A DNA stretch of 64,000 nt from Desulfitobacterium metallireducens DSM 15288 (GTDB taxonomy: Bacteria; Bacillota; Desulfitobacteriia; Desulfitobacteriales; Desulfitobacteriaceae), in contig NZ_CP007032.1 of assembly GCF_000231405.2 (NCBI RefSeq), positions 682,001 to 746,000 on the forward strand. Reading direction: 5' to 3'. Both the position numbers and the translations under genes were made by a program. Below the pieces are notes generated by a model. The model was not told the origin of the DNA. It searched no databases and saw nothing but the letters and a program-made list of their open reading frames with translations. This document shows, in pieces, positions 3,831 through 6,707 of this stretch (positions are counted from its first letter, which is position 1; every line of letters begins with the position of its first letter).

Positions 3831-3835
3831 AAGAG

Positions 3836-3871
3836 ATACCTCAAAATCACAGTATTGTGATTTTGAGGTAT
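3836..3871 (+). terminator. hairpin after the pseudouridine synthase gene
   Basis: A perfect 15-bp stem (3836-3850 with 3857-3871), loop AGTATT. The T tract is weak and comes a few bases late, so it may act in both directions or simply as a stabilising hairpin. Confidence 0.7.
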
Positions 3872-3952
3872 TCACATTTTTAGGAAGGATTATTTTTCCT
3901 TTAAAACGAATATGAAATAGTAGATTATGCTTTAAGCTAAAGGAGAATATGG

Positions 3953-4417
3953 ATGGCCCAGTTAGAGTATCGTTTGCTGGACGAAGAAAATGGATTTCCC
4001 GCACTATATGGGTATGAGCAGATCCAGAAGGAAGAGATCATTGCAAGATGCTTATGCGATTATTTCATCAAAGAAGGTATTGTTTATGAACTCACTTCAT
4101 CTGCCAAAGAAGAATCTCTGCAAGTTATCTATGTCAAGAAAGTGGAGGATAAACCCCATCCTCAGACACCAGGGCAAATCAAGGGCATGGGATTTATTCT
4201 TTTAGAGCTTCGGGAGTTCCAAGAGGAAGCAGACTCTTACCCCATTATGAAGACTCTTGAATTTGGAAATATGCAGGATCTTCTTCTTTACGCGGTTAGC
4301 CTATATATTAATTTTCAGGACAGTGAATGGGAAAAAACCTCATTTGAAATCGATGAGGATCGAGAAATTTTCTGCTTGTATCTTAAGCAATCAGTGAAGG
4401 AAGAAGGGGTAAAGTGA
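3953..4417 (+). CDS. unknown 154-aa cytoplasmic protein, first gene of the GspS-like operon
   Basis: I do not recognise this protein. It is acidic, has no signal peptide or membrane segment, and reads as a compact alpha/beta domain (start MAQLEYRLLDEENGFPALY; alternating charged and hydrophobic strands; C-terminal KQSVKEEGVK). The ATG follows AAAGGAGAAT at 3940. Its stop overlaps the start of the next gene by four bases (GTGA), so the two are translationally coupled. Position suggests it serves the same pathway as the Gly/Ser-rich protein and ligase that follow. In E. coli yjfKLMC a cytoplasmic protein of unknown function (YjfK) is at a similar place, but I see no sequence match I could defend. 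Confidence 0.75.
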   Translation: MAQLEYRLLDEENGFPALYGYEQIQKEEIIARCLCDYFIKEGIVYELTSSAKEESLQVIYVKKVEDKPHPQTPGQIKGMGFILLELREFQEEADSYPIMKTLEFGNMQDLLLYAVSLYINFQDSEWEKTSFEIDEDREIFCLYLKQSVKEEGVK

Positions 4418-4914
4418 CCAAGACACAACGAATGGTCGGGATTTTTTTGTCAACAGCTCTTGTGGTCGGCGTCGTCGGTTATGGATCGAAGCAGATAGCA
4501 CAAGGTGAACCTGAATCCGAAGCACAAGTGAGTAATGGGGAAAATAACGATTATCAAGGTGGAGGCGGATTTTTCTCAAGCTTTTTTGGTCCGTTTGGAC
4601 CGTTTGGACCGTTTGGTCCCTTCGGGTTTTTTAGCGGTCGTTCTTCAGGCTATTACTCCGGTTACAATTCGGGAGTATCCTCGGGAACCGCGGGTAGTGT
4701 GAAAAATCCAGCAACGGATTCCGCTACAGGAACCTCAGATACGAGTGCTAAAACTCAATCGAATAATGCGGGGATAGCGGGGACCTCTCCGTGGGGAAAG
4801 TCAGGTTCTACAAGTTCTAACAGCTCGTCCTCGACATCTTCAAGTTCTAAAAGCGGGATTTCGAGTGGCAGCCATGGTGGAATTGGAAGCAGTGGAGGAA
4901 CGAGTGTAAGCTAA
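4414..4914 (+). CDS. exported Gly/Ser-rich protein with Gly-Pro-Phe repeats
   Basis: A 166-aa protein with an N-terminal membrane or signal segment (about residues 7-24, hydrophobic with GVVGYG) after MTKTQR, so exported or membrane-tethered. The mature part is low complexity. It has a run of Gly-Pro-Phe units (about 58-70), then Ser/Gly/Tyr repeats (SGYYSGYNSG), a Ser/Thr-rich stretch and a Gly/Ser-rich tail ending GGTSVS. The GTG start overlaps the preceding stop. The DUF1190 proteins YgiB/YjfM, which neighbour GspS-like ligases in enterobacteria, also end in Gly/Ser-rich tails, so this may be the Gram-positive counterpart and possibly the substrate of the next enzyme. That is inference; homology is not demonstrated because composition dominates. 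Confidence 0.75.
   Translation: MTKTQRMVGIFLSTALVVGVVGYGSKQIAQGEPESEAQVSNGENNDYQGGGGFFSSFFGPFGPFGPFGPFGFFSGRSSGYYSGYNSGVSSGTAGSVKNPATDSATGTSDTSAKTQSNNAGIAGTSPWGKSGSTSSNSSSSTSSSSKSGISSGSHGGIGSSGGTSVS
4588..4623 (+). repeat. four 9-bp tandem units encoding Gly-Pro-Phe
   Basis: Units GGTCCGTTT, GGACCGTTT, GGACCGTTT, GGTCCCTTC run in frame within the Gly/Ser-rich gene. The near-identical DNA copies suggest recent slippage expansion. Confidence 0.85.
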
Positions 4915-4934
4915 AAATGAAGGGGAGTTAAGCT

Positions 4935-6185
4935 GTGAACAGGGGGAATTACCCGGAGGTCCGTGAACAATTTTATGGTTCGATTCGCGAGGTTTTCTCA
5001 TGGGACTGGATTGATGGAAATGAGTATGGCTTAGCTGAAATGCACTACATCACCCCTGAGTTTCGAAAGGAAGTCGCCTATGCAACAGAAGAACTGGGGA
5101 AGATCTATGCTAAAACGGTATTGAGGGTTCAACAAAGCCCAGATAATCTACTCGAAATGCTAGGTATTCCTATAGAAGCTTTCGCGGCAATCAGACTTCC
5201 GATTATGCCAGACATTCCGACGCTGATTGGTCGCTTTGATTTTGCGAATACCCCTCAGGGGATTAAAATGCTTGAGTTTAATGCGGATACTCCAACGAGT
5301 GTGGTTGAAGCATTTTATGTTAATGGGAAGGCTTGTGAATTTTTTGGCGCAGGAGATCCTAATGAAGGTCAGGAACAAGAAATCACAAGGGCATTCCAGA
5401 AAATCCTGAAGCGTTATCACGACTTCGGGTATGAAACTGAAAATATTATTTTTAGTTCTTTGGACTGGCATGAGGAAGATAGGGGAACAGTACACTATTT
5501 ATTGAAAGTGTCTGGAGTTTCAGGCTATTTTGTTCCTTTGGAAAATCTCCGAGTCGTTGAGGATGAACTTCATGCCTTAATTGAAGGTGAATATCGGAAA
5601 GTTGATGTTTGGTACCGGTTGCATGCCCTTGAAAAGTTAGCTGAAGAGAAGGATGAAGATGAATATCCTACCGGAGCTCATGTACTGGATATGATCTCTC
5701 GTGGAAAATTAGCAATTATCAATCCTCCTTCAGCATTTATTGCCCAGACAAAGGCCTTGCAGGCTTTGATCTGGGGGCTACATGAAGCGAAAGAGTTCTA
5801 TACAGATTCTGAGCAAACCATAATTGAGCGTTATATGCTCCCGACTTATATGGAAAATCCTTTCTTAGGGCAAGAAGCATTTGTCGCCAAGCCCATTTAT
5901 GGACGCGAAGGGGGAGCAGTCAGTATTTTTCAGGCTGACGGTTCGGTTTTGGAAAAAGACCAAGATGAGTTTTATTGGGAACAACCGATGATCTATCAAA
6001 AGTTCGTGGAAATGGAAGAGGTTGAAAGTATGACTGTATCCGGACCCTATAAGGGACGGTTACTTTGGGGTTCTTTCCTTATTGGAGGGAAAGCTTCTGC
6101 TCTTAGCGCACGAATTGGGGAACGAATTACCGGGAATTTATCGTACTTTCTACCTTCCGGATATTATAGAAGACTTGGCTACTGA
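4935..6185 (+). CDS. GspS-like ATP-grasp amide ligase (YgiC/YjfC family)
   Basis: A 416-aa homologue of the synthetase half of glutathionylspermidine synthase (no N-terminal amidase domain), an ATP-grasp enzyme that forms amide bonds between a peptide carboxylate and an amine. Visible family features are the Trp-rich N-terminus (FSWDWIDG), RFDFANTPQGIKMLEFNADTP in the middle, and the ATP-grasp segment KPIYGREGGAVSIF near residue 320, followed by EQPMIYQKF. The start is GTG at 4935 with AAGGGGAG at 4920-4927. Glutathionylspermidine is unlikely in this organism type. As in E. coli ygiBC and yjfLMC, the ligase sits next to a Gly/Ser-rich exported protein and a DUF350 membrane protein, which points to modification of an envelope component. 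Substrate unknown. Confidence 0.88.
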   Translation: MNRGNYPEVREQFYGSIREVFSWDWIDGNEYGLAEMHYITPEFRKEVAYATEELGKIYAKTVLRVQQSPDNLLEMLGIPIEAFAAIRLPIMPDIPTLIGRFDFANTPQGIKMLEFNADTPTSVVEAFYVNGKACEFFGAGDPNEGQEQEITRAFQKILKRYHDFGYETENIIFSSLDWHEEDRGTVHYLLKVSGVSGYFVPLENLRVVEDELHALIEGEYRKVDVWYRLHALEKLAEEKDEDEYPTGAHVLDMISRGKLAIINPPSAFIAQTKALQALIWGLHEAKEFYTDSEQTIIERYMLPTYMENPFLGQEAFVAKPIYGREGGAVSIFQADGSVLEKDQDEFYWEQPMIYQKFVEMEEVESMTVSGPYKGRLLWGSFLIGGKASALSARIGERITGNLSYFLPSGYYRRLGY

Positions 6186-6218
6186 CAAGCGTTAGCAAAA
6201 TAAGAAAGGGGAAAACGT

Positions 6219-6644
6219 ATGCTTTTAGTTAATTTTTTAAAATATTTAGGGGTGACTCTACCTCTTATGGCTTTTGCTATCTTCCTTTTCACCTTAACCA
6301 CACCCTACCAGGAATTTAAAATTATGTTTGATGGGGATGTTTTGGAAGATCCGCTAAAGGTGGCTTCAGCTAAAGCAGTATCGTTGGATTTGGGCGGAAA
6401 AATCCTTGGAATTGCCTTCTTGATGGCATCAGCGATCTACCATGCTGTGAGCTTCTGGGATCTTGTCGTATGGGCTCTAACAGGTACAATCTTTTTAATC
6501 GCGGTATATTATCTCTTTGAACTTTTGACTCCAGGAATATCGATTCGTAAAGAGATTCCTCAGGGTAATGTCGGTGTTGCGATTTTTTCCTTTTGCTTAA
6601 GTTTAACCTCAGGAATTTTAATGGCAGCGCTGATTAGTTATTAG
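6219..6644 (+). CDS. DUF350 membrane protein (YjfL-like)
   Basis: A 141-aa integral membrane protein with four predicted helices (about 8-28, 52-72, 78-100, 118-138) and the DUF350 pattern: TTPYQEFKIMFDGD after helix 1, then ASAKAVSLDLGGKILGIA, and LLTPGISIRKEIPQGNVGVA before the last helix. Function is unknown in the family. It closes the operon 33 bp after the GspS-like ligase, a pairing also seen in E. coli yjf genes. ATG with AAAGGGG at 6206. A strong terminator follows. Confidence 0.85.
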   Translation: MLLVNFLKYLGVTLPLMAFAIFLFTLTTPYQEFKIMFDGDVLEDPLKVASAKAVSLDLGGKILGIAFLMASAIYHAVSFWDLVVWALTGTIFLIAVYYLFELLTPGISIRKEIPQGNVGVAIFSFCLSLTSGILMAALISY

Positions 6645-6657
6645 AGTTACAAAATAG

Positions 6658-6707
6658 AAAGGGATGAAGTCGACCTCGCGGTTGACTTCATCCCTTTTGA
6701 TGTTTTT
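6658..6707. terminator. bidirectional terminator between DUF350 and symporter genes
   Basis: An 18-bp stem with tetraloop TCGC (6658-6675 with 6680-6697), T-rich to the right and A-rich to the left, so it can end both convergent transcripts. Confidence 0.9.

Follow-up and report, generated by a model that had tools for sequence, protein, structure and literature searches.

The bifunctional glutathionylspermidine synthetase/amidase Gss couples spermidine to the C-terminal glycine carboxylate of a tripeptide, glutathione. Two E. coli proteins, YgiC and YjfC, were reported in 2023 to be peptide-spermidine ligases (Pederick et al. 2023, Biochemistry 62:899, as cited in PMC12568646); in RefSeq the name of both genes is 'peptide--spermidine ligase'. 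The accessible text of a survey of PspA-linked operons (Ravi et al. 2024, mSystems, PMC11237479) describes operons in which a GspS-like ATP-grasp ligase occurs with DUF350, DUF1190 and a K+ channel, and suggests that polyamines are linked to membrane stress. SUMO and ubiquitin, to whose C-terminal carboxylate spermidine can be attached, offer a precedent among proteins (PMC12270671). In the accessible literature that we searched, no protein substrate of the YgiC/YjfC-type ligases is named; subscription literature lay mostly outside that search, and Pederick et al. (2023) may already discuss the E. coli proteins YgiB and YjfM.

Here we describe a system of this kind in Desulfitobacterium metallireducens DSM 15288. 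It lies in a stretch of 64,000 nucleotides (contig NZ_CP007032.1, positions 682,001 to 746,000), which we call the window and whose coordinates we use below. Four co-directional open reading frames (ORFs) at 3953-6644 form one unit, flanked by two terminator-like hairpins. The system is real and strongly conserved. It belongs to the YgiC/YjfC kind and includes a putative helper family that is absent from Pfam; a clear candidate for the substrate site is the C-terminal tail of the exported protein encoded beside the ligase. The genes and the tail are as follows (bp, base pairs).

3953-4417, + strand: ORF1, ATG start, 154 amino acids
4414-4914, + strand: ORF2, GTG start, 166 amino acids, overlapping ORF1 by 4 bp
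4855-4911, + strand: C-terminal tail of ORF2, GISSGSHGGIGSSGGTSVS-COOH, with GGIG at 4876-4887; proposed recognition and modification site
4935-6185, + strand: GspS-like ATP-grasp ligase, GTG start, 416 amino acids, after a gap of 20 bp
6219-6644, + strand: DUF350 protein, ATG start, 141 amino acids, after a gap of 33 bp

A preliminary description, made from the DNA alone, had already placed four tightly spaced ORFs here. Its remark that no function is established for the E. coli relatives is outdated in view of the 2023 report, as cited, and of the RefSeq names, which agree with it.

The ligase and the unit around it

By Pfam search the ligase belongs to PF03738 (E = 4.6e-57; 194.3 bits against a cut-off of 29.3), which covers residues 21-407 of 416 and is the only Pfam domain above cut-off. 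It is thus a stand-alone ligase of the glutathionylspermidine-synthase fold from which the amidase half is absent, as had been read from the sequence before. Its best relative among solved structures is YjfC (7uk6, E = 2.5e-17), followed by YgiC and then by Gss. Against the NCBIfam equivalog model for Gss (NF007801) the ligase scores 64.5 bits, compared with a cut-off of 882, and the match is limited to model residues 254-580; with that cut-off unreached and the amidase half absent, we rejected the identification of the protein as Gss.

The ligase is CATALYTICALLY complete, in that every residue invariant among the window ligase, YgiC, YjfC and Gss is retained. When 18 sequences (distant Bacillota, YgiC, YjfC and Gss) are aligned, 14 columns are invariant, corresponding to Gss R316, D318, E330, N332, E341, E391, E445, K498, W505, K533, R538, G540, Q568 and R598. 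We take these to be active-site residues of Gss, several of which presumably bind Mg-ATP and the glycine carboxylate of glutathione, as in Gss structures. Residues R100, D102, E114, N116 and E181 of the window ligase align with Gss R316, D318, E330, N332 and E391, and residues K273, K319, R324, Q355 and R393 with Gss K498, K533, R538, Q568 and R598, in both cases with their counterparts in YgiC/YjfC. The ATP-grasp catalytic residues, on whose presence the preliminary description had staked its reading, are therefore intact on alignment. Judged from its sequence, the protein is a GspS-like ATP-grasp enzyme of the YgiC/YjfC type, for which peptide-spermidine ligase activity is predicted.

The unit recurs across genomes. 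We surveyed 74 genomes of the order to which the window genome belongs and found the ligase in 18 of them. ORF1, sought by profile, is present in exactly the same 18 genomes and in none of the 56 without the ligase (Fisher p = 1e-17), and DUF350 is present in 17 of the 18 (p = 8e-16); kinship among the genomes means that both values overstate independence, yet ORF1 has no exceptions. The gene order ORF1-ORF2-ligase-DUF350 is seen in those loci of the order whose contig spans the region. We also scanned GTDB species genomes, which gave 374 relatives of the ligase, and examined the best 80, a few of which repeat species of the order survey; they come from Desulfosporosinus, Brevibacillus, Paenibacillus, Tumebacillus, Thermoactinomycetaceae, Sporomusa and others. 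Among these best 80 loci ORF1 is present in 76 and DUF350 in 74. The genome survey covers ligases of the Bacillota type, and other phyla are represented by a few plasmid-borne loci and by E. coli; DUF350 is present at most of the Bacillota and Pseudomonadota loci examined. The four genes are thus nearly always together in related genomes, which is what the preliminary description had required of them, and the recurring order and strict co-occurrence of ORF1 with the ligase exclude a chance arrangement.

With the E. coli systems the window unit has in common the ligase family and its catalytic residues (YgiC/YjfC, PDB 7uk6-7uka), a ligase-adjacent, exported, Gly/Ser-tailed protein with a C-terminal xGG[FYI]Gx motif (YgiB/YjfM and ORF2) and, in the case of yjf, DUF350 (YjfL). 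It differs in that the ligase is only about 25-27% identical to YgiC/YjfC, the partner has no Pfam DUF1190 domain, and there is an ORF1 family instead of PspA, DUF2170 or DUF2491 genes. The ligase, DUF350 and an exported partner are likewise common to the window unit and the PspA-linked 'third group', whose components, in the accessible part of PMC11237479, are the four listed above and DUF2491. A further likeness is that some relatives have an ion channel gene close to the cassette (L073, 8448-9476; L074, 5017-6030; L111, 6825-7592; two of them with RCK/TrkA-N domains). In contrast to that group, there is no PspA/CesT-Tir dyad in the window and none was recognised among recurrent neighbours, ORF1 being found instead, and in hhalign profile comparisons, made against single sequences, we detected no homology of ORF1 to YjfI (DUF2170) or YjfK (DUF2491), each with a probability of 0.2%. 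Since the terminator-bordered unit holds neither PspA nor DUF2170 (CesT/Tir-like), we rejected its assignment as a PspA-linked yjfIJKLMC-type operon. Gss (GspSA) has the family of its ligase half and the catalytic residues in common with the window ligase, which lacks its amidase half. The conjugation of spermidine to SUMO and ubiquitin resembles what we propose below in that a protein whose end is small and flexible receives spermidine at its C-terminal carboxylate, but it is eukaryotic, uses E1/E2 enzymes and concerns unrelated proteins (PMC12270671).

The C-terminal tail of the partner protein

Orthologues of ORF2 begin with a short N-terminus that includes a hydrophobic segment, continue through a low-complexity middle that changes fast, and finish in a C-terminus that is nearly invariant: the mean fraction of the modal residue is 0.71 in the first 25 residues, 0.45 in the middle and 0.81 in the last 18. 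The consensus of the tail is (K/H)GGIG followed by 7-8 residues, mostly Ser or Gly. For a tail test we asked that [GSKHAR]G[IVLFYM]G lie within 35 residues of the C-terminus and that Gly and Ser together make up 40% or more of the final 20 residues, took same-strand ORFs within 3 kb of the ligase as possible partners, and used ORFs farther away of at least 60 amino acids (n = 1054) as controls. A neighbouring ORF passed at 73 of the 80 Bacillota ligase loci, compared with 0 of the 1054 controls. Of the 73 partners, 60 have the exact sequence GGIG, compared with 3.0 expected when the same residues are shuffled; the distance from the end of the motif to the C-terminus is 7 or 8 residues in 67 of the 73, and the last residue is Ser in 40, Gly in 31 and Glu in 2. 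Because GGIG is encoded by 32 different 12-mers across the 60 loci, selection acts at the protein level. The shuffles, the control ORFs and this codon diversity rule out chance or a DNA-level repeat as the source of GGIG.

The seven exceptions to the tail test are one locus at a contig end (L095), two without a partner (L133 and L171) and four whose exported proteins have no GGIG and end in FGG (L118), SGG (L129), FGG (L140) and SGS (L166). Two of these loci, L118 (3483-6712) and L129 (3197-6702), have two DUF350 genes each, beside a partner whose tail has lost GGIG and still ends in Gly-Gly.

Similar tails accompany more distant ligases. Among Bacillota, partners end for example in KSSGFGSFFRSSGG, AKSGFGSAGARSASS or RSGSSKSGFGG. 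E. coli YjfM ends in VSRGGYGRSSSARGHWGG and YgiB carries a similar tail, and tails of the same type are found on ligase-adjacent DUF1190 proteins of Pseudomonas, Rhizobium and Vibrio and on ligase-adjacent proteins of 376-389 amino acids in the cyanobacteria Leptolyngbya and Trichormus (examples from this set are RGGFGGSAV...GGSFGG, RQGFGGRSSFSFGG, SRGGWGSFSSSKSSWGS, VSGMGSSRSGGASS and VSGFGSFRSGGSSS). The bodies of the tailed partners show no relationship between groups that Pfam can detect, and therefore the tail is either ancient or convergent; to judge from the sequences compared, it tracks the ligase in either case. Similar tails in Bacillota, Pseudomonadota and cyanobacteria bear out the earlier suggestion of a cross-phylum unit made of a GspS-like ligase and an exported Gly/Ser-tailed partner.

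Variant arrangements also occur. Three loci (L079, 6390-9026; L080, 7330-9798; L085, 7050-9518) encode tandem double GspS-like ligases of 820-880 amino acids, whose C-terminal half is a canonical PF03738 domain; each adjoins an exported partner with a GGY-containing tail, an example beside such double ligases being KSGGYGAIRGGSAIS, and a protein of 210-225 amino acids from an unknown family. On the Bacillus plasmid NZ_CP076118.1 (L173, 3000-5315) a ligase and a lipoprotein ending in SSGFGG are followed by a poly-gamma-glutamate hydrolase gene, with neither DUF350 nor ORF1 nearby.

Possible substrate and product

We propose that the unit is a Bacillota form of the YgiBC/YjfLMC-type systems of E. 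coli, in which the ligase would couple the C-terminal carboxylate of ORF2 to a polyamine, most likely spermidine, ahead of export; we give this reading a probability of roughly 0.5. Ligation at the C-terminus of ORF2 appears to be the best explanation because a related ligase with the Gss-invariant residues adjoins an exported protein in which the type of residue at the C-terminus, and the distance to it, are fixed. The chemistry, in which an acid is joined to an amine and a peptide to spermidine, comes from the literature on the ligase family, whereas ORF2 as the substrate and spermidine as the amine are what we infer here. The cytosolic enzyme would recognise GGIG with the 7-8 small residues that follow, ending in Ser or Gly, activate the carboxylate as an acyl phosphate using ATP, and transfer it to the amine, most likely spermidine, yielding ORF2-CO-NH-polyamine. 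Because ATP is needed, ligation would precede or accompany export. After export, the modified protein would stay attached through its N-terminus to the outside of the membrane, in most relatives as a lipoprotein, and would thereby display at the membrane or wall a flexible Gly/Ser chain whose end is positively charged. ORF1 might hold the tail as an adaptor or dock the ligase, DUF350 might be a docking part in the membrane, and the purpose might be protection from envelope stress. The ion channel genes near some cassettes and the D.[DN].DG loops of many partners (see below) are compatible with an envelope role. That the ligase acts on the exported protein had been suggested before, and the near-invariant tail strengthens this idea, though the relevant feature is the GGIG-Ser/Gly tail and not the Gly-Pro-Phe repeat.

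Several points weigh against this proposal. We infer the ORF2-amine conjugate from genes and sequences, and the conserved tail could be a binding site that undergoes no covalent change. With a cytosolic ligase and an exported ORF2, the reaction would have to take place before or during export. Two Paenibacillus loci, L133 and L171, show no partner, and three loci in Thermoactinomycetaceae retain just a ...GG end, GGIG being gone. Finally, although AdoMet (S-adenosylmethionine) decarboxylase and spermidine synthase genes are present in the host genome, polyamine genes occur in 66-68 of the 74 order genomes and are unlinked to the cassette here. Because they are near-universal in the order, spermidine is not singled out, and we set aside their co-distribution with the cassette as an uninformative test. 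The host genome also has a second AdoMet decarboxylase-like frame outside the window (G000:C1:1602118-1602519; 287 amino acids, with a split PF02675 match), which is conserved in the order.

The position of the polyamine genes, outside the unit and near-universal, would also suit a reaction at the same site of the same substrate with another amine, such as putrescine, an aminopropylated compound, an amino acid or a cell-wall amine, and 'aminopropylation of other substrates' is an option named in the accessible text of the survey of PspA-linked operons (PMC11237479). We consider another amine unlikely, since peptide-spermidine ligase is the description given to YgiC and YjfC, the closest homologues that have been characterised, and the Gss-invariant residues are retained. 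It is also improbable, in our view, that ORF2 stays unmodified and that its tail is a docking peptide which recruits or regulates the ligase or a DUF350 complex, while some other peptide is turned by the ligase into a small peptide-polyamine. Gss itself uses a small peptide, which we take as a family precedent for such a product, and the partners at L118, L129 and L140 retain just the last small residues, so recognition may be loose. Yet the tail lies at a fixed distance from the C-terminus and its last residue is nearly always Ser or Gly, which is what use of the carboxylate itself would predict; docking would not require the end to be fixed, and once exported the tail would be extracellular and unable to dock an enzyme of the cytosol. 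Cleavage of the tail to release a short Gly/Ser peptide-polyamine that DUF350 exports is very improbable: GG pairs are commonly sites of processing in other peptide systems, and DUF350, whose function is unknown, is conserved and membrane-bound, with four transmembrane helices, but no protease gene in the window is linked to the unit, the conserved N-terminal signal or lipobox would be useless, and the DUF350 model matched no solved structure and so gives no support for transport.

Polyamine ligation to ORF2 may be one instance of something broader. Tentatively, and at a little under even odds, we suggest that several phyla have a dedicated system by which exported proteins anchored in the membrane have spermidine or a related polyamine ligated to their C-terminal carboxylate, that a tail of [GSKHR]-G-[IFYW]-G with a short small-residue end is common to otherwise unrelated substrates, that E. 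coli YgiB and YjfM are two of these, and that the Bacillota version has the helper ORF1. The peptide-spermidine ligases of E. coli and several other phyla would then have, in each genome, a specific protein, site and mass shift designated by the conserved tail. If this is true, a polyamine at the C-terminus of an exported protein would be a new bacterial protein modification, and it would tie polyamines to envelope stress systems, an association noted earlier, in the accessible text, without a mechanism (PMC11237479).

The other proteins and the spread of the cassette

Further features of the unit are listed here.

3835-3872, + strand: terminator-like hairpin at the upstream border, 17-pair stem then a T-rich stretch, behind the preceding pseudouridine synthase gene
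4432-4485, + strand: N-terminal hydrophobic export/anchor segment of ORF2, from an alignment of 15 orthologues; the lipobox Cys of relatives is replaced by Tyr
4588-4629, + strand: Gly-Pro-Phe-Gly repeats of ORF2, from the alignment; in only some close relatives and absent from most order-level partners
6657-6698, + strand: strong terminator-like hairpin at the downstream border, 19-pair stem with a T-run, 3' of DUF350

The downstream hairpin is the terminator seen earlier, to which the upstream one is added. PF03738 and PF03994 each have one copy in the genome (a single 3.18-Mb contig). A PADLOC search gave no match for the proteins of the unit, and we dropped a defence system as a reading.

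ORF2 is Gly/Ser-rich and exported or membrane-anchored; it matches no family of Pfam or PADLOC, and no model of NCBIfam matched it above noise. Most of its relatives are lipoproteins with a lipobox Cys, which has been lost in the window protein and in its nearest relative, L036. The earlier picture of an exported low-complexity protein therefore holds for the export/anchor segment and the Gly/Ser richness, but the Gly-Pro-Phe repeat is local: we rejected it, with the Gly/Ser repeat, as the key feature, since it is missing in most orthologues, whereas the C-terminal tail is retained. At 4588-4629 the repeats occupy, in this lineage, the site of acidic EF-hand-like D.[DN].DG loops in most Bacillota partners; such loops are present in 53 of the 73 tail-positive partners. 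The comparison with the Gly/Ser-tailed DUF1190 partners of E. coli stands in part. ORF2 shares with DUF1190 proteins its export, its place beside the ligase, its Gly/Ser tail and the xGG[FYI]Gx motif, but PF06693 does not match it and we rejected it as a DUF1190 homologue. Nor does PF06693 match the partners of L073, L075, L077, L110, L157 and L128, and the partner of L084 scores 13.5 bits, below the cut-off of 22.

ORF1 is acidic (pI 4.4), and the profile searches agree with its earlier description as a protein of no known family: neither Pfam nor PADLOC gave a match, and in NCBIfam no model rose above noise. Its structural model (predicted local distance difference test score, pLDDT, of 88) has two tandem strand-strand-helix-strand-strand-strand repeats. 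The structural register fits an internal duplication; the sequence score of the two halves is weak and was equalled in 65 of 500 shuffles. Despite the confident model there was no significant match in the PDB; the weak matches (HisI, protein L and glutamine synthetase N-terminal domains, with Z of 4.4 or lower) may reflect just a common sheet-helix arrangement. D134, D136 and R137 are invariant. The 213-residue protein of L085 has no profile similarity to ORF1 and was rejected as a relative. ORF1 represents a putative helper family without a Pfam entry that is carried by the Bacillota version of the system.

The 141-residue protein is a DUF350 (YjfL-type) membrane protein, as had been proposed (PF03994, E = 2.2e-27; 96.1 bits against a cut-off of 26). 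Its AlphaFold2 model has four long transmembrane helices (mean pLDDT 92.8) and had no convincing match among solved structures (all E above 1). Order genomes without the ligase have DUF350 as fragments or weak remnants only (broken or partial copies at G009:C37:189197, G023:C65:3020, G042:C13:27068 and G043:C32:5819), which suggests loss of the cassette. At L036 (6871-9619, genome G008), the ligase is 81% identical to that of the window, compared with about 60-65% for other members of the genus of G008, which hints at transfer of the entire cassette.

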